Positions 12,400 through 61,998 of a stretch of 64,000 nt of DNA are shown here, piece after piece. Position 1 is the first letter of the stretch. Every line of letters starts with the position of its first letter. This DNA is from Odiellus spinosus (lineage: Eukaryota > Arthropoda > Arachnida > Opiliones > Phalangiidae), in contig OY987236.1 of assembly GCA_963920705.1 (NCBI GenBank), forward strand, positions 9,224,190 through 9,288,189, written 5' to 3'. The notes under the pieces were generated by a model. The model was not told the DNA's origin and searched no databases. It was given only the letters and a program-made list of their open reading frames with translations. The translations under genes were made by a program, and so were the position numbers.

Positions 12400-12605
12400 T
12401 TGAGTTAAATGTTGGGAAATGTGGGCAAAATGCGAGTAAAATGTTGCAAAATGTGAGAAAATGTTGCAAAATCTGAGTAAAATGTTGCAAAATGTGAGAA
12501 AATGTTGCAAAATGTGGGAAAATGTTGCAAAATGTGAGTAAAATGTTGCAAAATGTGAGAAAATGTTGCAAAATGTGAGAAAAATGTAGCAAAATGTGGT
12601 AAAAC
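12400..12605 (+). repeat. Minisatellite, ~20 base unit
   Basis: About ten copies of AAAATGTTGCAAAATGTGAG with single-base variants. The repeat keeps two minus-strand frames open, giving Phe/His/Cys-rich open frames of 127 and 69 codons that are best explained as repeat byproducts. Confidence 0.9.
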
Positions 12606-36609: not shown

Positions 36610-36716
36610 ATAGAGCATTAAAAGAAAATAAAAAACTGATTTTATTGTATTAAAATTAATTTTAATCCGCGTTGTTTCGTTAACTACTTTAGAAATAATT
36701 TGAAATTATAAAAGTT

Positions 36717-36908
36717 TAATTCAAGGTCGATGCGAATTTGTATAAGAATTATCTCTAATTGGCGAGCTTTTTTTTCTTTTTAAACTCCGCTAAGCCTAAC
36801 TCTCGATTATTAATTCAAGGTCGATGCGAATTTGTATAAGAATTATCTCTGACTTATTGGCGAGCTTTTTTTTCTTTTTAAACTCCGCTAAGCCTAACTC
36901 TCGATTAT
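36717..36908 (+). repeat. Recent tandem duplication, 94-base period
   Basis: Copies begin at 36717 and 36811 (TAATTCAAGGTCGATGCG) and are identical apart from a short indel (CTAATTGG against CTGACTTATTGG). Each contains CCGCTAAGCCTAACTCTCGA. Confidence 0.88.
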
Positions 36909-36909
36909 T

Positions 36910-39833
36910 AATTCATATTAACTAGATGTTAGTCTCTTGTTGATTTAATTAAGTAATGAGACAGATAATATTACAATTAACCTACCCATGACGGGATTAA
37001 TTATGTCAAAAATTCGAATCGATTAAAAAGTTTTTCTTTTACAGCTTCACTTCAAAAATATATATATTTTTTCTTTTCTTAACGGAATAGGAAACGTGGT
37101 CATACGAAGCTTGTAACAAAATATATAAGTAGAGAGAAAAAGAGAGAAGGTTCGGGGTCGTTAGCGCCCCAAAGATTATTTCGGCCGATAGTTTTTGGGG
37201 CCGAGCGAGCGTCCACCGCCCGATTCTTTAACTAATTGCCAAGCGGGTCTTATTGACACTCCCTACCATGCACGCGTGATCCTATAGTCTTACATTCGCC
37301 ATCCCATCCCCCTATAACTAATGATAATTACTCCTTACGACTAGCTAGCTTTGTTATCCCTATGTACACTCCCACATATTGAGTTCACCAGCCTCGCAAC
37401 CCCTAGACTCTTAAAAGATGTTCTACGCTGATTTGTTGAAGATAATATTCAGAATCTAAACTGAAAGAAATTAAACTCTATAGCTAGCCTAATAAAAAAA
37501 ATGTTTTCAAATTATAGTTAATGATTGTTGGTTATTTTTTTGGAAATTGTGTGGTATTTTGGGAACGCAGTCTCCTAATGGTGAGTGAAGCTCTTACATC
37601 CGTTATGTCGGGGTCTACGTAGTCGTTGTTAAAAAGTCAAATAACTAAAACTAAAGAAGAAAAATTAAGTGTAACTCGCAATGAAGCCTAATTAATTACT
37701 AAGCCTTATTCCGAATTTACATAAAAGTTATTATTGAGTCTAAGTAAGACTTTATACTAAAGTTAATAAGCTTTCGAAGCCTTATTCTATCATAATATGA
37801 AACTTGTTAACCATACCTCTACCATAATATGCAACTTGATTAACTAATAAGTCAAAATTTATACCAAAAGCTCATAATCTTCATGTGAAACTATAATTTT
37901 GAACAAAACTTTAAATAAGTGAAATATTATAAACTATACACGTACAAATATCCCTAACCATAAAGAATAAAATTATTTATTGATGAAGTAAGGTGGACTC
38001 GAAAAGTATGTTGTTTCTTTGCTATTAATTAATCGGTCACATTAAATAAAATTTATATTATAAACCCTCCATAATAATAAAAGTTTAATTAATTATTCCC
38101 AAAGACGGTTTCATCATCAAAAGGTATTTAATCGTTTAATTAACGGTCCAATAACCGTAAAACTGGGGGAAAAGGGTATGGCGAAACTCATCACTGATTA
38201 GAACTGAGAAAAGCATAGTGAAAGAATGGGAAAAAAAAAAATTGGTAGGTATATAAAGAAAGGTAAGGTCCCCGTGATGTCTAACAGGGGTCCAAATGGC
38301 CCCAAAGCGAAGTTCCAAGTTAATAATTCATCACAGTCACTTAGAACCCCTCTCTCTAGTTCCCCAGGTATATTCTCAAACTTCTAATACCGTCTCTCTT
38401 TTCAGGTTATGGTTGCTCGGAGGTTTTTTGGTCTTAATGGAAGAGAGTAAATCAAACCGGCATGCCCGGGCCTCCCTAAACCGGACCAGTTCCGTAATTA
38501 CGACCGACGGAAAAAAAACCTATACCCCGTCCCTACCCTATATTCTCATCCTAGGGCACCTTTTTTACTCTCAATGTTCGCCCTTTAAAGGGAATGTGAA
38601 GAGGAAGTTCTTGTCCGTTTCATTTGCGAGAAATATTACATTAAAATACCCTCAACATCTGCTAAGCCTAACTAACAAAAATGTGTCTCTAATTATAAAT
38701 CTCATACTAGAAGAAACAAAAGTGAACCACGCGAGGCCTTCCTTAGCTTAGGCTGTAGAAATTGTACTATTTGTGTGAGCCAATCAGAGTTTCTCTCAGA
38801 CAATGGGTGACTATGGAGTATTATCCGCCAACATTTTCCCAGAGTTGCCAAAACATTCCGTCGGAATGAGTTATTAAACTGATAACAAAGTTAAATCGGT
38901 AAAATTAATATTTCAAGTTGAAAAATATATGCTTTCCCACTCTAATTCACACCCCTTCGCGTCGCCACAGTCCGGCTTTAGTTAAGCTCCACGTCATCAA
39001 TAACATTTTCTACGATGACACTAGCGCCCCAAAAGTTAAGTGTTGAAAGTCTAGGATATACACTGCCCTTTCTCAATTAACGCGGTACATTTTAGATAAG
39101 TGGACATGTCACTTCGATCTATTGCTTTTTTCCTTATTTAAGCAGATTACTTGTACTACAGTTCTCTAAGTACTGCAACTAATGTAGTTTCCCAGAACGC
39201 ATGGACACTTGTACCCTTCTTTTCCTAAGATCTTTTGTAGGATCTTGCTGTTCTCAATAGTTAAAAATGGTTTTTTCTTCAAAATTTGGGATAAGAAAGT
39301 AACGTACTAAACCATTTCTTTTTACCCTTTTCACTCTCACTTTAACAATGGAACCCTTAAGGGTGGGATATGAAGAAAGGTATGTCTTCATTAAGATCAG
39401 GTATAATTCCTGGAGAAAAGCCCTATATGTACTACGGAACTGAGTTGGTAGAAAAAAGTAGAAAGTATAGTAGGAAAAAAATGTCCAAAACCATTATATA
39501 GAATATAAGAAAGGTAGAAAACGAGCAAAGACCCGTCTTGCCCTCAATATTATTGTAGTCTATTTATATAAACGAGGAACTTTATATAAAGATCGGGAAA
39601 GATCATAAGGGTTTTCTTTATTTTTCTTATTTTTTTGTGGCGAAGGTGATCAAGCATGTCAGCAAAAATATCTATAGTCTGTCTACGCAATATGTGGGAT
39701 TATATTTGGATTCCATTATGAAATTTCAATTTTTCTATTCATTATATAGTAGTCTGAATTACATCTACAAAGTTTATTTGAGAATAATTTGATTATTACT
39801 TTATATAGGATTAGTTGGGTGATGTTTCCATCA
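36910..39833. other. No confident gene; one 151-codon open frame
   Basis: The frame at 38296-38751 (+) is the longest outside the transposon but has mixed composition, no domain I recognise, and crosses a CCCTTTAAAGGG sequence typical of MITE ends (about 38582). I treat it as chance. Confidence 0.45.
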
Positions 39834-40195: not shown

Positions 40196-40625
40196 ACCAA
40201 GAGTCCAATAAAAAGAGGACCCAAGAACCCACTGAAGAGCTATAGTACCCAAGAACCCATTGAAGAGGTATAGTACCAAGAATCCATTGAAGATCTATAG
40301 TACCCAAGAACCCATTGAAAAGCTATAGTACCCAAGAACCCATTGAATAGCTAGTACCCAAGAACCCATTGAATAGCTGGTACCCAAGGACCCATTGTAG
40401 TGCTAGTATTCAAGAATCAATTCAAAAATCAAAAGTACCCAAGAACCCACTGAAAAGTACCCAACAACACATTGAATTACTCAAGATCCACCAATTGTAT
40501 TCCCAAGAACCCATTGAATACCCAAGAAGCCATTGAAACACCCAAGAAGCCATTGAAACACCCAAGAAGCCATTGAAACACCCAAGAAGCCATTGAAACA
40601 CCCGAGAACCCATTAAAGTGTCCAA
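40196..40625 (+). repeat. Minisatellite on CCCAAGAACCCATTGAA
   Basis: About 18 copies with unit length sliding from about 32 bases (with GAGCTATAGTA between) to 20 bases (CCCAAGAAGCCATTGAAACA). The last four are exact 20-base repeats. Open frames rich in Trp, Phe, Gln and Gly on the minus strand are repeat byproducts. Confidence 0.9.
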
Positions 40626-43468: not shown

Positions 43469-44038
43469 ACAAAATATTAGGAAACTTATCTGTACTCCAC
43501 GAAACGTCACCTTTTCAACGGAATTACGCGCCACTTTCGGTGCTGGCTAGCTATTTACTGAACTCGGAAATAGTTTTTTCTATTGTTTTTCAACCGCGAA
43601 ATGGTATGATTTTAGTGTTCGAGATAAATATTCTGACTTTTGTGCAAAAACAACAGCAACTCCCCATAAGAGTCTGGGTCCACGTAATGTTAAAAATTTT
43701 CGTCTCTTTTATGATAAATTCGTATTATATTATTAAAATAGGGTAGTTGGGGGATAATTTAAAGCTAAAATTCGAGCTCACAACTGTAAATTTTGGGAAT
43801 TACAACGAATGGAAGGTTTCTTCCATAATGTAAAGAATAGGAAGAATCTATGACTTCCGTGCCGGATATGAAAGCTTTCCCCCACACGAAAATCTTGAAC
43901 GGTTATTATTTTAGATTCATAATTATGTTAGGAAAATATTAGGAAAGAATTATTTTGTAACTGCCACGGGTATAGTGCTGGCGGCAAAATGAAATTCGTA
44001 TATTTTTGGTCTACTATGCCTCGAAATCCTCGAAAACG

Positions 44039-44102
44039 CCTGTAGAAGTGTTCCACTTGTCAAGCATTCATGCAGTAGGCTTTTGCTAGCTTTACAGGGG
44101 CC
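44039..44102 (+). repeat. Two-box element inside the left transposon arm
   Basis: Box 1 reads CCTGTAGAAGTGTTCCACTT and the unit ends CTTTACAGGGG. CCTGTA pairs with TACAGG and the next bases continue the stem with one bulged G. The mirror copy lies in the right arm at about 47240-47305 on the minus strand. An additional degenerate half may lie near 43959. Confidence 0.5.
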
Positions 44103-44284
44103 GTGCAAAGACTATATAGCTTACTTGAATAGTCTTTGGTGTATAAGAAACTCGAAAAATAAATAGAGAAATCATACCAATTAGAAGATACTGGAGTAGT
44201 ATCTTTAATTTTTATTTCATATTAAACAAAACACACTTGTATAAAACGGACAAATTATTCATTTAACGCTAAGGTTTTCTACGT

Positions 44285-44703
44285 TTAACGTATGTCTGGT
44301 AGTTCAAGCTCAGTGGCATCTTCACACACTACACGCAATTTTGACTGGTACCAACTGCCTCGATCTTCATGGCGACGATAACCAAGATACCAGATTACGC
44401 TGCTAACGTGAACACAAGTACCTATCGTCAAACTACCACCTTTGCAATTGCAATAACAGCCTTTAATGGCATTTGCACCTGTCCCGTTCGGTACATAACG
44501 AATTAGAGCTTGGTGAACAGCTGAGGTGGAAAATTGACCAGGCACGCGTATACGAATTAAGTCATGTTCAACTTTGGACACTTCGACGCTGAAAGAGCCG
44601 GATTTCTCTATAGTCAACGCCACATAATATTCAGCGCGTTTCGTTTTAAAGTCGCTCATTACCACCTCACGTACATCACTTTCACGAAGTACAGGGAAGT
44701 CTT
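44285..44703 (-). pseudogene. 5'-truncated inverted copy of the transposase C-terminus
   Basis: On the minus strand this matches codons 613-750 plus stop of the intact transposase, including the SWIM-type zinc motif. The protein differs by one residue (Cys where the full copy has Trp, just before CNC). The reading frame continues upstream into unrelated sequence to an ATG at 44777-44779, giving a 164-residue open frame whose first ~26 residues have no counterpart in the transposase. It lacks the whole DDE domain. It is the coding part of the left inverted arm, not an independent gene, though a SWIM-only peptide could in principle be made. Confidence 0.85.
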
Positions 44704-44808
44704 CACTAATTAAAGACGTCTTTAATATTTTTTGCCAGCCAGGTTGGCGAAAAATAATTAAACCTGTTTTTATAAACATTAAAAAAATTGTAATATCTGG
44801 TTTGAACC

Positions 44809-47061
44809 ATGATCTTAAGAACTTTCCTTATCAATAACATCAATGTGAGAGTCACTTGGAATTTGGAGATGGCTCCAAATACATGTTACGCGTGCAATCG
44901 GAAAGTTACCAATAGTACAAGTAGAGGTATAGGCACTCACGTAAAGGCTGGCTTTGCTCGTTTTCTTCGTTTTAGTAAAGGGTTATTACCACTTGTAATT
45001 AATAGCAAAACAACGAAGATTTGTTTAAAGTGCTCGGGTCTGTCACGAAAGTTTCAAACGTTCTTAAATGCTAGCAAATCGTCCTTCAGTAGTGATCATG
45101 GCTCTTCAACGTCATCGTCTTCACCACAAAAACGAAGACAAATGACGCAAGTATCTAATCCATCAACGTCAACAGTACCTGAGCCATCAACGTCCACAGT
45201 ACCTGAACCAACAAAGTCCACAGTATCTAATCCATCACCGTCACCAATACCTCAGCCATCAACGTCGCAATTACCACGAAAGCGTACATCATCAAACACT
45301 ATTGCCATAAAGCACAGTTGTGTTCGGCCCCTGCCAAAGACTTGCTTCATTTGCGGTGTTAGTACACGAACCAGGGTAAAAGCCGAAGTGAGAACAAGTA
45401 TATTTGTGGAAAGAGCCATATTTATTCATCTGGACAACCGAATGTGCTCCACGCATCTCGTTAACGGAGAGCTTCCCACCGAAATAATTGCTGGAATTCA
45501 GGTTTCCGCTAGATCAACCATTATGACTGCCACGGACATTGAGCAACTATTACAGGACCTCAGGAAATGTGTTAACGACCTACGGACGCCGAGCTTTGAC
45601 AATTTCATACAAAGTGATGAAGACTGTAAAGTATTAACTTCATTGTCCCTGCACGAGTTCCTAGAGTTGCATTCGACTATTGAGGACATTATTCGTAACA
45701 TCAGATGCTGTTCGTCGAAGACAGCTCTAGCAGTATTATTGGTGAAATTACGATTGGGTATCTCCAATAAGGTGTTTTCAACTTTATTTCATTTAACTGA
45801 AAGATCGGTATCAAACACGGTAAAAGCGGTTATTATGGCTTTATCGGAGCATTTCGTGCCACATCATTTTGGCCTGCAACACTTATCACGTGACAATCTG
45901 ATAACAAACCATCAATCTGGAGCAGCAGTAAAACTCTTTGCTAACAACAAGCCTAATTGTCTTATTACCATTGTAGATGGCACCTATATCAAGGTTGGAA
46001 GATCCAAGGACTATACCGTTCTTCACAAATCCTTCTGTGTGCACAAAGGCCAGCATATCCTCAAGCCAATGTTAATGGTAACAACTACGGGTTACATAAT
46101 AGATATAATCGGACCCTACATTGCTAATGGCCGCAATAACGACGCGCGCATTTTAAACCATTCTATCAAAAAGAGAGAAGAACTCCAGTCTTTCTTTCAA
46201 GTTGGTGACGTTGTACTGGCAGACCGCGGTTTTCGAGACTCCAACAGCGTACTGACTGAACTGGGTGTGGATTTACAAATGCCTTCGTTCTTGTCTAAAG
46301 GCGAGAAGCAAGTAAACACGCAAGAAGTTAATCGTTCCCGACAAGTAACGTACCTCAGGTGGCCGGTTGAAGTTAGGAATGGGCATTTGCAGACGGTGTA
46401 TCGTTTTTTTCAAAACCGTATACCTGTGCATATGTTACCATTAGTTCCGGAACTTCTTCAAATTGCTGCTGCGCTGTTGAACGCCTACCACCCGGAGTTA
46501 CATCTTAAAGGTTCCTGGGAAGACTCCGTCGAAAAAATGCTGGCAGTCTCTACGAAAGAAAATCCTCTTAAGGAAGTAGTTGAGCGCGATAATCTGCTTC
46601 GCAAACCGTCTAAATGGCAACGAATTGAGGATAGTGAATTTCAAGACTTCCCTGTACTTCGTGAAAGTGATGTACGTGAGGTGGTAATGAGCGACTTTAA
46701 AACGAAACGCGCTGAATATTATGTGGCGTTGACTATAGAGAAATCCGGCTCTTTCAGCGTCGAAGTGTCCAAAGTTGAACATGACTTAATTCGTATACGC
46801 GTGCCTGGTCAATTTTCCACCTCAGCTGTTCACCAAGCTCTAATTCGTTATGTACCGAACGGGACAGGTGCAAATGCCATTAAAGGCTGGTATTGCAATT
46901 GCAAAGGTGGTAGTTTGACGATAGGTACTTGTGTTCACGTTAGCAGCGTAATCTGGTATCTTGGTTATCGTCGCCATGAAGATCGAGGCAGTTGGTACCA
47001 GTCAAAATTGCGTGTAGTGTGTGAAGATGCCACTGAGCTTGAACTACCAGACATACGTTAA
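44809..47061 (+). CDS. DDE transposase, DDE_Tnp_4-like, with SWIM-type zinc motif (750 aa)
   Basis: This is the catalytic protein for moving its DNA element, acting in the nucleus. The frame is open throughout and intronless. In order: a paired CxxC motif (C26, C29, C72, C75); a Ser/Thr/Pro-rich linker (about 91-160); a second zinc-like motif (C179, C182, C213, H216); a helical helix-turn-helix-like region (about 304-345); the DDE domain (about 385-560) with D390 in VDGTYI, D445 in NNDARI, D472 in LADRGFRD and E521 in WPVEVRNGH; and a SWIM-type zinc motif C696-x-C698-x9-C708-x-H710. The D390/D472/E521 order fits the DDE_Tnp_4 group seen in cnidarian, sponge and insect genomes (family assignment from memory, not searched). 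The ATG at 44869, codon 21, just before the first zinc motif, is an equally good start. GC content is visibly higher than the surroundings. No catalytic residue is missing, so it may be active. Confidence 0.93.
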   Translation: MILRTFLINNINVRVTWNLEMAPNTCYACNRKVTNSTSRGIGTHVKAGFARFLRFSKGLLPLVINSKTTKICLKCSGLSRKFQTFLNASKSSFSSDHGSSTSSSSPQKRRQMTQVSNPSTSTVPEPSTSTVPEPTKSTVSNPSPSPIPQPSTSQLPRKRTSSNTIAIKHSCVRPLPKTCFICGVSTRTRVKAEVRTSIFVERAIFIHLDNRMCSTHLVNGELPTEIIAGIQVSARSTIMTATDIEQLLQDLRKCVNDLRTPSFDNFIQSDEDCKVLTSLSLHEFLELHSTIEDIIRNIRCCSSKTALAVLLVKLRLGISNKVFSTLFHLTERSVSNTVKAVIMALSEHFVPHHFGLQHLSRDNLITNHQSGAAVKLFANNKPNCLITIVDGTYIKVGRSKDYTVLHKSFCVHKGQHILKPMLMVTTTGYIIDIIGPYIANGRNNDARILNHSIKKREELQSFFQVGDVVLADRGFRDSNSVLTELGVDLQMPSFLSKGEKQVNTQEVNRSRQVTYLRWPVEVRNGHLQTVYRFFQNRIPVHMLPLVPELLQIAAALLNAYHPELHLKGSWEDSVEKMLAVSTKENPLKEVVERDNLLRKPSKWQRIEDSEFQDFPVLRESDVREVVMSDFKTKRAEYYVALTIEKSGSFSVEVSKVEHDLIRIRVPGQFSTSAVHQALIRYVPNGTGANAIKGWYCNCKGGSLTIGTCVHVSSVIWYLGYRRHEDRGSWYQSKLRVVCEDATELELPDIR

Positions 47062-47698
47062 ACGTAGAAAACCTTAGCGTTAAATGAATAATTTGTCCGT
47101 TTTATACAAGTGTGTTTTGTTTAATATGAAATAAAAATTAAAGATACTACTCCAGTATCTTCTAATTGGTATGATTTCTCTATTTATTTTTCGAGTTTCT
47201 TATACACCAAAGACTATTCAAGTAAGCTATATAGTCTTTGCACGGCCCCTGTAAAGCTAGCAAAAGCCTACTGCATGAATGCTTGACAAGTGGAACACTT
47301 CTACAGGCGTTTTCGAGGATTTCGAGGCATAGTAGACCAAAAATATACGAATTTCATTTTGCCGCCAGCACTATACCCGTGGCAGTTACAAAATAATTCT
47401 TTCCTAATATTTTCCTAACATAATTATGAATCTAAAATAATAACCGTTCAAGATTTTCGTGTGGGGGAAGGCTTTCATATCCGGCACGGAAGTCATAGAT
47501 TCTTCCTATTCTTTACATTATGGAAGAAACCTTCCATTCGTTGTAATTCCCAAAATTTACAGTTGTGAGCTCGAATTTTAGCTTTAAATTATCCCCCAAC
47601 TACCCTATTTTAATAATATAATACGAATTTATCATAAAAGAGACGAAAATTTTTAACATTACGTGGACCCAGACTCTTATGGGGAGTTGCTGTTGTTC
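46643..47698. repeat. Right inverted arm of the transposon
   Basis: Holds the last ~138 codons of the transposase, its stop, poly(A) signal and about 640 bases of downstream non-coding sequence. Ends GGGGAGTTGCTGTTGTT, the reverse complement of the start of the left arm. Confidence 0.85.
47130..47161 (+). terminator. Poly(A) signal followed by a perfect hairpin
   Basis: AATAAA at 47130-47135, about 70 bases after the transposase stop, is followed directly by AAGATACT-ACTCC-AGTATCTT, an eight-base-pair perfect stem with a five-base loop at 47141-47161. The poly(A) role is inferred from motif and position. The hairpin is also present, mirrored, in the left arm. Confidence 0.55.
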
Positions 47699-48710
47699 TT
47701 TTTCAGATCCCCAGACACTTTGGCTAAATTTAATATTTATTCAGTATAAACCAGCAAACAGTCTGGCTATATACTTGATCTGAACCTCCATTGGCTTCTT
47801 GATACTAAACACGAAACAGAAATATTTACTTCACAAAACGCAAGTTTTAGATTAGAGAAAGAAGAGATTGCTAAATAAAATAAACGGCACTTTGGAAAAT
47901 CAGCAAAAAATAAGCCTATATTGAAGGGTTTCTTTAAATTAACTCTAAATTAAAGGAAATGAATTGATATATGAGAATCATCCTCTCTCCTTGAAACAGC
48001 TATCAAATAATCTTGTGACTTACAATTACTTCAGTAAAACTTGCCATAACCACTAAATGGACTAGACAGGTTGGTCTCGTGGTGTACAGACATAAGCGCA
48101 CTAGTAAGAATCGAATTTCGGCCCAAAAGACGATAACAGGAGCACCCAAAAGGGGACATTGTTCGGCGGACAAGCGTTATTAAGAGGCAATTAGTGCTAG
48201 GCACGTCGACTAAGTGCTAAAATGAGTGGCGCCTCAGACCGTCCCGTCTAAAATGTCCTTTAGCAACTCTTACACCCTTCCCCCACTCGCCAATATCTAC
48301 CTGCGCTGAAAGCACCCCTGTCTAGCTTCCTTGGCAAGTTCCCTCGTGGGAGATCAACGCAACAATATCGACAATTAAGTCCCTTTTAAACGACAACCCT
48401 CCCCGAAAGAGAGCCTCCAGCCAAAATACAATTTGTTCGAATAATTTGAAACAACGACTACCCAATGCTGAAAGAGGTATATATTTCTTAAAGTAAAGGT
48501 CTCACGAAAAACTAACAATTTTTTTTAGGCCTACTAGATTATAAGAGGTATTTTAATGAGAAGTGGCAATACACGAAAAAAAAGTTACGAAGAAAATTTG
48601 AAAATAGGCAGATATATTTTTTAATTTTATTGCCATGGTGTAAAAGGTAGAAATATATTAGAATAAAATTCTAATGCATGCCAATGGGGATGTAAGCTAT
48701 AGGAGTCTGG
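47699..48710. other. No gene found downstream of the transposon
   Basis: Short open frames only. A segment near 48070-48125 (GGTTGGTCTCGTGGTGTAC) is faintly tRNA-like but lacks a complete cloverleaf. Confidence 0.45.
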
Positions 48711-58260: not shown

Positions 58261-59868
58261 ACCTGGTTTTTTCCTCCTAATTAGTTACGTAAGTTATAAT
58301 TATATCGTTTAAATGACTTTTAACGAGAAAAAAATCGGTTAAAATCAATCAAATACTCCAAATTATACCTTATTGGCTCCCTATGGAGATTAACGTGGCG
58401 AAATATGATTTTAAAATATTTTATTTTGACAAAACCGATAAACGGATTGGTCTCAACTCGCTTTAATGGAAATAGGACCACGAAAGGAACCGAAATCCAC
58501 CAAAAAAAGTTCAAGATTCGAAACTTTATTTTTGCTCATTTTCGAAAAAACCAAAAAAGGGAAAATGAAGTTTTGAAGTTTTCGCGGATTTCAAAAATGT
58601 CAAAAATAAAGTTTCGAATCTGGAACTTTTTTTGGTGGCTTTCGATCGCTTTTGGGGTCCTATTTCCATTAAAGCGAGAGGAGACCAATCAGTTGATCAG
58701 TTTTATCAAAATAAAATATTTAAAATCCAGATTCGCTATGCAAATCCCCATAGGGCGCGGATAATGTATTGTTTTAAGGATTTGACTGATTCTGACCTGG
58801 TTTTTTCCTCCTAATTAGTTACGTAAGTTATAATTATATCGTTTAAATGACTTTTAACGAGAAAAAAATCGGTTAAAATCAATCAAATACTCCAAATTAT
58901 ACCTTATTGGCTCCCTATGGAGATTAACGTGGCGAAATATGATTTTAAAATATTTTATTTTGACAAAACCGATAAACGGATTGGTCTCAACTCGCTTTAA
59001 TGGAAATAGGACCACGAAAGGAACCGAAATCCACCAAAAAAAGTTCAAGATTCGAAACTTTATTTTTGCTCATTTTCGAAAAAACCAAAAAAGGGAAAAT
59101 GAAGTTTTGAAGTTTTCGCGGATTTCAAAAATGTCAAAAATAAAGTTTCGAATCTGGAACTTTTTTTGGTGGCTTTCGATCGCTTTTGGGGTCCTATTTC
59201 CATTAAAGCGAGAGGAGACCAATCAGTTGATCAGTTTTATCAAAATAAAATATTTAAAATCCAGATTCGCTATGCAAATCCCCATAGGGCGCGGATAATG
59301 TATTGTTTTAAGGATTTGACTGATTCTGACCTGGTTTTTTCCTCCTAATTAGTTACGTAAGTTATAATTATATCGTTTAAATGACTTTTAACGAGAAAAA
59401 AATCGGTTAAAATCAATCAAATACTCCAAATTATACCTTATTGGCCCCCTATGGAGATTAACGTGGCGAAATATGATTTTAAAATATTTTATTTTGACAA
59501 AACCGATAAACGGATTGGTCTCAACTCGCTTTAATGGAAATAGGACCACGAAAGGAACCGAAATCCACCAAAAAAAGTTCAAGATTCGAAACTTTATTTT
59601 TGCTCATTTTCGAAAAAACCAAAAAAGGGAAAATGAAGTTTTGAAGTTTTCGCGGATTTCAAAAATGTCAAAAATAAAGTTTCGAATCTGGAACTTTTTT
59701 TGGTGGCTTTCGATCGGTTTTGGGGTCCTATTTCCATTAAAGCGAGATGAGACCAATAAGTGGATCAGTTTTTTCAAAATAAAATATTTAAAATCCAGAT
59801 TCGCCATGCAAATCCCCATAGGGCGCGGATAATGTATTGTTTTGAGGATTTGACTGATTCTGACCTGG

Positions 59869-60717
59869 AGGCTATTCTCTAAAAAAATCCAAAGCATTCG
59901 AATTCGGAGAGTTCGAATCATTCGCATCGCCTTCATTCGGGTTTGGTACAAAAAAGCCTATTCTCTAACCCTTATTCGAATGGTGATTCGGATCCCTTCG
60001 AGCCCGAATCCGAATCATAGTGTACGTCATTTTTATGTGGAGAAAGTAGGAGATCGCGAGGTATTATTTCTCTCTTATTGGTCAGAATTTGGGCGGGAAG
60101 ATTTAAAAATATTTAGATTTTTAAAATAATAGTTTTGGGACATTATTCAACTCGATCAAATGTGTTTGATTTCTTGGGAAATTTAGCATTATTATATTGA
60201 TCAAATTATGAATATGCCTCTTAGTTATTTTTATTTTTTAAATTTAATGAAACTGAGAGTGTAAACTTATTTGAAATTAAGGGTTAGTATAGGAATAATG
60301 ATTCTTCATTCAATAAACGATTAAATAAAATGGTAATTTCAGACTTATGTAGTTTATATGGTTTTCATAATACCATTGGTTTAAATAACCATTTTAATTT
60401 AAATTTAGATGGCAATAAAAATACCAATCGTTGGTATTTATCTAGAATCCTTTCGTGAAATAAATTTGATACGTAATAAAACAATAATTCAGAGTAATGC
60501 TCCAAATCATAAGATTTAATATTAATTTAATTTAAATACGATCATCTAGCGTACTACACTTTTAATTATTAGATTTAATATCAATATAAAATAAATTCAA
60601 TCATCTAGCGTTAAACTTTTATGTTATTTAATTTAAAATAATGCAATCATCTACCGTTAAACTTAAAATGATTAGATTTAATTTAAAATAATACAATCAT
60701 TTAGCGAAAAGCGTATA
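59869..60717. mobile_element. ~850-base insert splitting the 534-base array
   Basis: The array is interrupted after ACCTGG at 59868 and resumes with GGTTTTTTCC at 60718. The insert opens with AGGCTATTCTCTAA, a motif repeated about 87 bases later (GCCTATTCTCTAA), then a hairpin GATTCGGA/TCCGAATC near 59974-60016. It ends in a short tandem repeat. There is no open frame of note and no clear terminal inverted repeat, so its class is unknown. Confidence 0.65.
60536..60712 (+). repeat. Minisatellite at the end of the insert
   Basis: Four diverged copies, period about 50-60 bases, each with AATCATCTAGCGTTAAACTT or a close variant (CATCTAGCGTACTACACTT, CATCTACCGTTAAACTT, CATTTAGCGAAAAG). Confidence 0.65.
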
Positions 60718-61998
60718 GGTTTTTTCCTCCTAATTAGTTACGTAAGTTATAATTATATCGTTTAAATGACTTTTAACGAGAAAAAAACCGGTTAAAATCA
60801 ATCAAATACTCCAAATTATACCTTATTGGCCCCCTATGGAGATTAACGTGGCGAAATATGATTTTAAAATATTTTATTTGACAAAAACGATAAACGGATT
60901 GGTCTCAACTCGCTTTAATGGAAATAGGACCACGAAAGGAACCGAAATCCACCAAAAAAAGTTCAAGATTCGAAACTTTATTTTTGCTCATTTTCGAAAA
61001 AACCAAAAAAGGGAAAATGAAGTTTTGAAGTTTTCGCGGATTTCAAAAATGTCAAAAATAAAGTTTCGAATCTGGAACTTTTTTTGGTGGCTTTCGATCG
61101 CTTTTGGGGTCCTATTTCCATTAAAGCGAGATGAGACCAATCAGTTGATCAATTTTATCAAAATAAAATATTTAAAATCCAGATTCGCTATGCAAATCCC
61201 CATAGGGCGCGGATAATGTATTGTTTTAAGGATTTGACTGATTCTGACCTGGTTTTTTCCTCCTAATTAGTTACGTAAGTTATAATTATATCGTTTAAAT
61301 GACTTTTAACGAGAAAAAAACCGGTTAAAATCAATCAAATACTCCAAATTATACCTTATTGGCCCCCTATGGAGATTAACGTGGCGAAATATGATTTTAA
61401 AATATTTTATTTTGACAAAACCGACAAACGGATTGGTCTCAACTCGCTTTAATGGAAATAGGACCCCGAAAGGAACCGAAATCCACCAAAAAAAGTTCCA
61501 GATTCGAAACTTTATTTTTGCTCATTTTCGAAAAAACCAAAAAAGGGTAAATGAAGTTTTGAAGTTTTCGCGGATTTCAAAAATGTCAAAAATAAAGTTT
61601 CGAATCTGGAACTTTTTTTGGTGGCTTTCGATCGCTTTTGGGGTCCTATTTCCATTAAAGCGAGATGAGACCAATCAGTTGATCAGTTTTATCAAAATAA
61701 AATATTTAAAATCCAGATTCGCCATGTGTTGTTTTGAGAATTTGACTGATTCTGACCTGGTTTTTTCCTCGTAATTAGTTACGTAAATTATAATTATATC
61801 GATTAAATCTCTTTTAACGAGAAAAAACCCGGTTAAAATCAACCAAATACTCCAAATAATACCTTTATTATTACGGGATAAGGATTATTATTATTATTAT
61901 GGTTTTATTTGAGTTTGTAAAGCCTAATTGGGCTTGTACACAAACAGCGGTAGAATTACATTGCGAAACAACAAATTGATATAATCAATACTCGAGTC

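Follow-up and report, generated by a model that had tools for sequence, protein, structure and literature searches.

Structure of the element

The window, meaning the whole 64,000-nucleotide stretch of DNA analyzed here, contains a transposon whose two long inverted arms carry the 3′ end of its own transposase gene. The features of the locus are as follows.

43645..43647: left host target half-site, CAA in the window copy, AAA at most family ends
43648..47698, no strand: whole element, putative Spy-type transposon, 4051 bp; family terminus GAAC...GTTC between AAA and TTT
43648..44703, minus strand: left arm, an inverted copy of the transposase gene's 3′ end together with the 3′ non-coding end; H3-H1058; 3 mismatches against the right arm
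44285..44779, minus strand: ORF of 164 aa running leftward from the centre, sharing its reading frame with the C-terminal transposase fragment in the left arm
44704..44708, no strand: CACTA, the five-base sequence of the deletion junction, followed by 9 bases from the left-half side of the palindrome centre
44709..44726, no strand: palindrome-centre remnant ATTAAAGAC^GTCTTTAAT, axis 44717/44718; the same centre as in full palindromes
44809..47061, plus strand: gene for the transposase (750 aa), which could also start in frame at 44869
46643..47698, plus strand: right arm, holding the final 138 codons with their stop, the AATAAA at 47130 and the 3′ terminus
47699..47701: right host target half-site, TTT

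The inverted repeat extends over 1058 nt (43646-44703 versus 46643-47700), its copies separated by 1939 nt. Because target analysis assigned the two outermost bases at each edge to the host AAA/TTT, the element proper spans 43648-47698 and its arms measure 1056 bp, with mismatches at 43648/47698, 43876/47470 and 44456/46890. The right arm takes in the final 419 bases of the ORF, stop codon included (138 codons, the stop and two bases), and 105 bases separate the left arm from the first ATG. A sequence-only reading of the locus had described both this 105-base distance and near-identical arms of about 1 kb holding the last ~138 codons of a DDE_Tnp_4-type transposase gene; both descriptions were borne out. 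Its left boundary, 43649, was off by one, as the left end of the window copy begins with A where the family has G.

The transposase matched DDE_Tnp_4 (PF13359; E 2.6e-19) over residues 389-558 and HTH_Tnp_4 over residues 307-349, the latter with a score below the family cut-off. Motif inspection yielded D390, D472 and E521, which we take to be candidate catalytic residues, and a CxC...CxH motif at residues 696-710 that is presumably SWIM-like. Sequence searches with E up to 0.1 recovered no relatives of solved structure, viral contigs gave 5 pattern matches and 0 relatives, and a tRNA scan and Rfam at gathering thresholds gave no matches. The leftward ORF was present in 9 of 10 window-type loci, and leftward ORFs fused to the centre occurred in several deletion classes. 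A truncated C-terminal protein acting as a conserved regulator was nevertheless rejected, for two of the three reading frames out of the centre are open and contain an ATG; random deletion would likely yield such an ORF, which is thus not clearly above chance.

Palindromic copies across the genome

The family terminus occurred 463 times in forward and 463 times in reverse orientation. Of the first 100 listed of 806 exact ends, the set that this count took in, 84 formed inverted pairs 2.3-8.9 kb apart. Matching ends number in the hundreds outside the window, so the family has spread, and recovery of the same arms genome-wide rules out a chance origin of the inverted repeat in the window. The fullest copies were near-perfect palindromes of ~5.96 kb, in which two transposase genes lie head to head with no spacer; one full palindrome spans C1:25505863-25511823. 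Each repeat of ~2.98 kb holds a complete gene, so that a full copy has both genes and lacks a separate 5′ end. Head-to-head complete ORFs were located at three places (contigs C1, C84 and C15, those on C15 carrying stops), with no terminus between them. Full palindromes aligned up to H2992 and window-type copies up to H2997. A perfect 30-bp palindromic centre was present at 83 genomic places; in the centres read, the halves joined directly or through short extra centre sequence, and one copy (C18:4766086) had its axis at the hairpin GCCAACCTGGCTGGC. A composite formed by independent head-to-head insertions of two elements, moving as one unit, would also present two genes in opposing orientation, but the centres read show neither terminus nor target remnant, and we give this origin almost no credence.

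Of 50 loci sampled from the window subfamily, 44 had two readable halves, and these were inverted in every case; the sample comprised best matches rather than random loci, and one pair (C202/C178) is probably a single insertion counted twice. A deletion class, H1926, was common to 9 of the 50. The exact 29-base deletion junction of the window copy occurred 23 times in the genome, with some occurrences on paired small contigs, perhaps haplotypes. A sibling with different flanks on contig C7 differed from the window copy at 2 of 4051 bases. These recurrences bear out the earlier suggestion of a long-TIR derivative able to move, in that the form is mobile now or was until very recently. The same reading proposed that the ordinary 5′ end had been replaced in this copy. 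With the whole gene in both halves of the fullest copies, the window copy reads instead as an internal-deletion derivative of a palindromic parent that lost ~1.9 kb of the left half.

Insertion target

AAA bordered 66 of 69 ends, with GAA at 2 and CAA at 1. One empty site was recovered (n = 1), an uninterrupted unit in the neighboring satellite, without duplication. Nineteen complete elements were scored for target duplication at four offsets and for lengths of 1-11, with mismatched pairs as the comparison. No element (0/19) had a boundary flank duplication of at least 3 bp, 2 of 19 shared 2 bp at the boundary versus 2.56 expected, and 2 of 19 shared flank bases at offset 3, length 4, versus 0.11 expected. 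An ordinary target duplication is thus not supported across these elements. For the window copy, a 640-base query of two elements' joined flanks found no empty site in the 40 candidates that were scored out of 256; in these, the window flanks matched only their own place, with no match across either join. Of what the sequence-only reading proposed to seek, many copies with recurrent boundaries were found, but no flanking duplication of 3 bp or longer was present at the boundary in the 19 elements, and the sole empty site was that in the satellite.

Palindromic reads are a known long-read artefact, and arms that differ at just three sites would fit foldback reads joined into a false inverted repeat. 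However, mirrored ends occur at many loci with different flanks in assembled contigs, variants specific to one half recur between loci, and the same target motif borders nearly all ends. Together with the abundance of the terminus, the repeated junction and the near-identical copy on another contig, these results make an assembly or sequencing artefact, as initially raised, exceedingly improbable.

Sister subfamily and age of the palindrome

A sister subfamily (B) differed from the window subfamily (A) at 161 of 2864 positions (5.6%), with a dN/dS of 0.16 that rests on one B copy, itself with two stops. Within the young subfamily, counts of N, S and stop changes among single-element and shared variants equaled the neutral expectation, giving no sign of purifying selection. 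A sister-subfamily probe scored 29 of 33 loci as inverted and 4 as single halves (68 of 69 rows were scored; omission of one 45-base C282 row left the locus class unaffected). Of the 29, 28 had two B-type halves, one had two A-type halves, and none were mixed. Sister-subfamily loci proper had inverted halves in 28 of 32 scored and single halves in 4. The B centre is related to the A centre, and the hairpin lies beside the axis in both.

Because the sister subfamily has inverted halves and a related centre, the palindromic architecture is probably older than both the recent burst and the 5.6% subfamily split. A recent origin, previously read from low divergence, thus applies to the burst, whereas the palindrome itself seems older.

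The inner edge was read in two of the four single halves: one had lost its partner just past the centre, the second diverged at about H2884, and no terminus was found in the ~2 kb beyond. The remaining two lie at C275:842255 and C282:538170. With two of four inspected, an ordinary 5′ end may exist in this family. These single halves could signify that this genome ordinarily carries a single-gene Spy element and that the window copy is a late foldback duplication of the 3′ third; published Spy elements mostly have one gene and shorter TIRs (PMC11304231). Full palindromes exist, however, halves were inverted at every readable locus of the window-subfamily sample, and the inspected single halves gave no terminus in those ~2 kb. 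A single-gene norm is therefore quite unlikely, and the one-off foldback duplication suggested at first does not stand.

Probable homogenization between halves

Among 67 two-carrier variants, 11 lay in both halves of one element. Such private variants point to inter-arm homogenization in some elements. Arm differences averaged 4.9 within elements versus 3.5 between elements, in a sample biased to near-consensus arms; as the within-element value is not the lower, homogenization is at most intermittent. Arm identity nonetheless partly reflects it, which weakens low arm divergence as the age signal it had been taken for.

Alternatively, fold-back priming at the hairpin near the centre might rebuild palindromes time and again from single halves, in place of gene conversion. 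The axis of C18:4766086 and the position of the hairpin in both subfamilies accord with this, and private variants in both halves are compatible with either route. Yet the H1926 class, which re-formation would erase, includes elements (C6:16079699, C1:2739418) that carry 3 of the 11 private shared variants, and 2 more lie in one-sided deletion forms, each found once. Re-formation from one half could be a partial source of the common private variants; as a replacement for gene conversion, we regard it as doubtful.

Model and significance

We favor, with considerable confidence, a Spy-type transposon with a ~5.96-kb palindromic parent and two identical 3′ ends, from which gap repair would generate deletions, the window copy being one such deletion form. 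In the parent, two complete transposase genes point outward from a common central region of ~180 bp, and both element ends are the same 3′ end; the transposase may thus pair two identical 3′ ends. Cut-and-paste movement is presumed from family membership. Excision would be followed by gap repair templated by another copy, during which premature stops and template switches between halves could produce internal deletions that retain both ends; the same repair may also overwrite one half with sequence from its partner. The window copy would have arisen in this way. Having kept one whole gene and both ends, it would have stayed potentially autonomous and may have spread as a separate lineage. We give even weight to a broader proposal, that an autonomous lineage without a 5′ end uses its 3′ end twice, bears the entire gene in each arm of a ~6-kb palindrome, has stayed palindromic over millions of years through copying during excision and gap repair, and spawns mobile single-gene forms by internal deletion.

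Perfect multi-kilobase palindromes are usually unstable. Here, a successful transposon is built as a palindrome of several kilobases. The family suggests that a Spy-type transposase can work with two identical 3′ ends. Full palindromes, deletion forms and two subfamilies constitute a natural series in which arm deletion, homogeneity and mobilization can be measured. Our results also caution that coding sequence inside long inverted repeats is not necessarily an assembly error.

Comparison with known transposons

Foldback-type elements such as FB have very long inverted arms and structural plasticity, their arms being mostly non-coding. The window family shares long arms and plasticity with Tetris and Tm1, but its arms are the transposase gene itself. 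Tc6 of C. elegans is a palindromic, non-autonomous element that is not known to carry a transposase gene; there too, the palindrome makes up nearly all of the element.

By comparison with published descriptions, the window family appears to be of Spy type, in the PHIS superfamily. The Spy hallmark is a target of AAA and TTT that is not duplicated on insertion (PMC11304231, PMC4482050), and this was seen here at nearly all ends, the empty site and the 19 elements described above. The family also shares with Spy a DDE transposase of PHIS type, about 700 aa long and bearing DDE_Tnp_4 (750 aa and PF13359 here), recent invertebrate bursts and long TIRs. PMC11304231 gives TIRs of 5-691 bp and mostly one ORF, or one or two in its discussion, and describes the 467-bp TIR of cgSpy from Colletes gigas as compatible with activity. 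The window family lies outside this descriptive, non-defining range of one ORF between such TIRs. Its arms measure 1056 bp in the window copy; in full copies, which have two ORFs and lack a separate 5′ end, the repeats extend to ~2.98 kb. It is best viewed as a structural variant of Spy. Searches of open PMC texts listed no palindromic or two-gene Spy elements. TIRs of up to 1042 bp are given for PIF/Harbinger, of the same superfamily, in PMC4482050, which also lists target duplications TWA, AT, ANT or TNA for PIF/Harbinger, ISL2EU, Pangu and NuwaII. The window family does not fit these groups: at the boundary 0 of 19 elements shared 3 bp, and the empty site had no duplication.

The nearest precedent for coding sequence within repeats is Galileo of Drosophila willistoni, a P-superfamily element whose TIRs take in the end of the transposase ORF, by 69 bp in a nearly complete copy and by at least 545 bp in copy 147 (PMC4168063). 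Both families have long, dynamic TIRs incorporating the ORF end and a series of defective copies. The DDE_Tnp_4 transposase and the absence of duplication separate the window family from Galileo and the P superfamily, with their P-type transposase and 7-8 bp target duplications. No functional Galileo copy was found in that study, and only part of the Galileo gene lies in its repeats, whereas full copies of the window family hold the complete gene there.

Structure of the window copy

The sequence-only reading proposed a transposon with long inverted arms that take in the 3' end of its own transposase gene, and both claims were borne out. The arms differ at three positions and stand 1939 nt apart; an arm takes in the stop codon with the 138 codons before it, as well as AATAAA at 47130. 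In a Pfam search, the ORF matches DDE_Tnp_4 (PF13359) with an E value of 2.6e-19, only just reaches the DDE_Tnp_1 cut-off and has a further match, to HTH_Tnp_4, that scores under that family's cut-off.

43646-44703: left inverted arm, 1058 nt
44809-47061: transposase ORF
45126-45275: imperfect 24-bp tandem repeats, coding for a Pro/Ser/Thr-rich segment in the N-terminal part of the transposase
46643-47700: right inverted arm, 1058 nt

Positions along one half of the element (H) are counted inward from H1 (window 47700) through the first base of the ATG (H2892) to H2997 (window 44704). The window copy is made up of H3-H1058, the five bases CACTA, nine bases of the centre (its left side) and a complete right half. 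Its junction pattern occurs at 23 genomic places, including pairs of small contigs that are possible haplotypes. A copy on contig C7 differs from it at 2 of 4051 bases yet has unlike flanks, so the window-type deletion form was itself probably mobile recently. The feature is real and well supported, a structural form that is new within a type of transposon already described.

Other repeats were seen in the window. Those at 58324-61774, the first three spaced at 534 bp, each carry an open frame of 146-154 codons and are absent from the tandem repeat scan, which covered periods up to 500. Tandem arrays lie as follows.

2270-2654: unit of 22 bases
12417-12604: units of 20/41/61 bases
36716-36915: unit of 98 bases
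40219-40454: units of 28/55/83 bases

Family size and palindromic architecture

The 443-Mb assembly (286 contigs) contains many relatives. The best 40 of 1138 candidates from an arm search all match across the full 1058 bases; the best 60 of 2108 from a protein search are all full length at 98-100% identity, 41 without an internal stop. Other DDE_Tnp_4 elements are also plentiful genome-wide: scoring covered the best 150 of 1357 candidates, and all matches listed pass the Pfam cut-off. Counts of the exact 29-base terminus are 398 forward and 408 reverse; a 27-base version with up to 3 mismatches gives 463 in each orientation. Among the first 100 exact ends listed, 84 form 42 inverted pairs 2290-8907 bp long (median 4416); 16 have no partner at exact stringency, one of which gains a partner when up to 3 mismatches are allowed. 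Two others of the 16 (L061 and L062) were read individually.

Sixty loci from the arm and protein searches, the best-scoring copies rather than a random sample, were merged to 50 places. Two of the copies, C202:356844 and C178:58334 (contig:position), have flanks 99.9% identical and are therefore probably a single insertion seen twice. All 44 loci readable on both sides have inverted halves; at the remaining 6 the fetched stretch stops inside a half, and at 3 of these, among the matches listed, a palindromic centre lies within about 20 bases of its expected place. At C1:25505003, H1-2992 is present on both strands, the halves meet at the centre, and both ORFs encode 750 aa. Three further copies are full or nearly full palindromes: C84:247541, whose second half is partly covered and whose second ORF is full length without a stop; C18:4766086, with one ORF whole and the other shortened; and C15:2397297, with both ORFs interrupted. 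The centre at C1:25505003 contains AAAAATATTAAAGACGTCTTTAATATTTTT, itself a perfect palindrome, found at 83 genomic places.

Deletion forms lacking part of one half include the H1058 type, to which the window copy belongs (10 of 50 loci), the H1926 type (9 of 50) and others; a few have losses in both halves. At their junctions, the aligned blocks either share 1-7 bases or stand 0-97 bases apart, and the intervening bases are not all foreign. The window copy is a derivative, and of the two the palindromic parent is of greater interest. At C7:10102284, C8:4455039 and C11:12783530, the 30-bp palindromic centre is amplified in tandem, with two or three copies set 47 bp apart.

Single halves were also found. 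L068 (C1:11380603) has the centre, but nothing of the element remains more than a few bases past it. L062 departs from the family at about H2884, and no terminus was found in the rest of its 5-kb locus. Minus-strand ORFs adjoin this old half copy (L062:3135-4824); one of these resembles, in our reading, a protein-primed DNA polymerase B such as Polinton-like elements carry.

Insertion target

Flanking duplications, suggested earlier as a check, are not supported: none of 19 complete elements has 3 bp or more of flank in common at the boundary. At one inner offset, 4 flank bases are alike in 2 of the 19, where 0.11 would be expected. Immediately outside the terminal GAAC, 66 of 69 ends have AAA as the adjoining triplet, two have GAA and one has CAA. 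The C15 copy sits in a tandem satellite whose adjoining unit carries uninterrupted CAGATAAATTTCGAT, the filled site reading CAGATAAA[element]TTTCGAT. This pattern of AAA/TTT flanks without duplication is Spy behaviour as described in excerpts of PMC4482050 and PMC11304231.

Exchange between halves and age of the palindrome

Sixty-seven variants have exactly two carrier halves in the sample. In 11, these are both halves of one element, where we estimate about 0.7 under random carriers. Six of the 11 belong to the nearly full palindromes on C15, C84 and C18, and three to elements of the H1926 class (C6:16079699, C1:2739418); the remaining two are in other elements with a deletion on one side. 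Sibling elements have left-arm variants in common that are absent from their own right arms. Nor, in this biased sample, do arms differ less within elements (mean 4.9) than between them (mean 3.5). Half-to-half exchange thus appears real, though not constant. In a block at H35-H120, four window-type copies (C14:17838776, C1:23959323, C16:4393797, C2:20685930) match a sister subfamily, B, at 7-8 sites, and do so in just one of their arms; we take this as a sign of exchange between B and the window copy's subfamily, A.

Subfamily B was recovered with L062, which is 93% identical to the window family. Of the best 33 of 752 candidate places scored, 32 are B (97-100% to L062) and one is A. Inverted halves occur at 29 (28 both B-like, one both A-like, none mixed) and single halves at 4; the B loci are partly alike in structure and may include duplicates. 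Among the inverted B loci the inner edge was read at six, and it was read at one single half as well. On at least one side, each of these carries a homologue of the A centre region, with GCCAACCTGGCTGGC or a close variant at its end. In L063 and L064 the palindrome runs on through the axis, and the other edges read are cut on one side. Given these inverted halves and the shared centre homologue, the palindrome is best read as predating the A/B split. The bases at the axis itself are unlike those of A, and the two palindromes could instead have folded independently at the same hairpin, a possible second reading. L061, a small foldback of greater age, combines H1-568 with inverted H307-1 at 91-93% identity.

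Comparison of A with L062 finds 161 differences in 2864 sites; dS is 0.138, dN 0.022 and their ratio 0.16 (0.11 in arm-encoded codons), so the transposase was probably under selection during subfamily divergence. The L062 coding sequence has two stops, and changes within A are compatible with neutrality. With usual insect rates, this dS would suggest that a palindrome predating the split has been kept over millions of years.

Mechanism and precedents

The structure, the insertion target, the series of copy forms and the variants common to both halves are direct observations, and from them a mechanism is proposed. The two identical 3' ends may be acted on as a pair, with transcription running outward from a centre common to both halves; template switching during gap repair could yield both the deletions and the homogenisation. 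No Spy-type element in the form of a complete two-gene palindrome with intact genes came up among the results listed for the open PMC texts searched. The Spy transposons described in PMC11304231 number 182; their TIRs span 5-691 bp, most are flanked by AAA and TTT, and they have one ORF, or one or two according to its discussion. PIF/Harbinger, of the same superfamily as Spy, has TIRs up to 1042 bp (PMC4482050). A similar repair argument is made for defective Galileo copies in PMC4168063. Galileo TIRs have likewise absorbed part of the transposase ORF, from 69 bp up to 545 bp or more, a precedent that makes arms reaching into the gene less novel.
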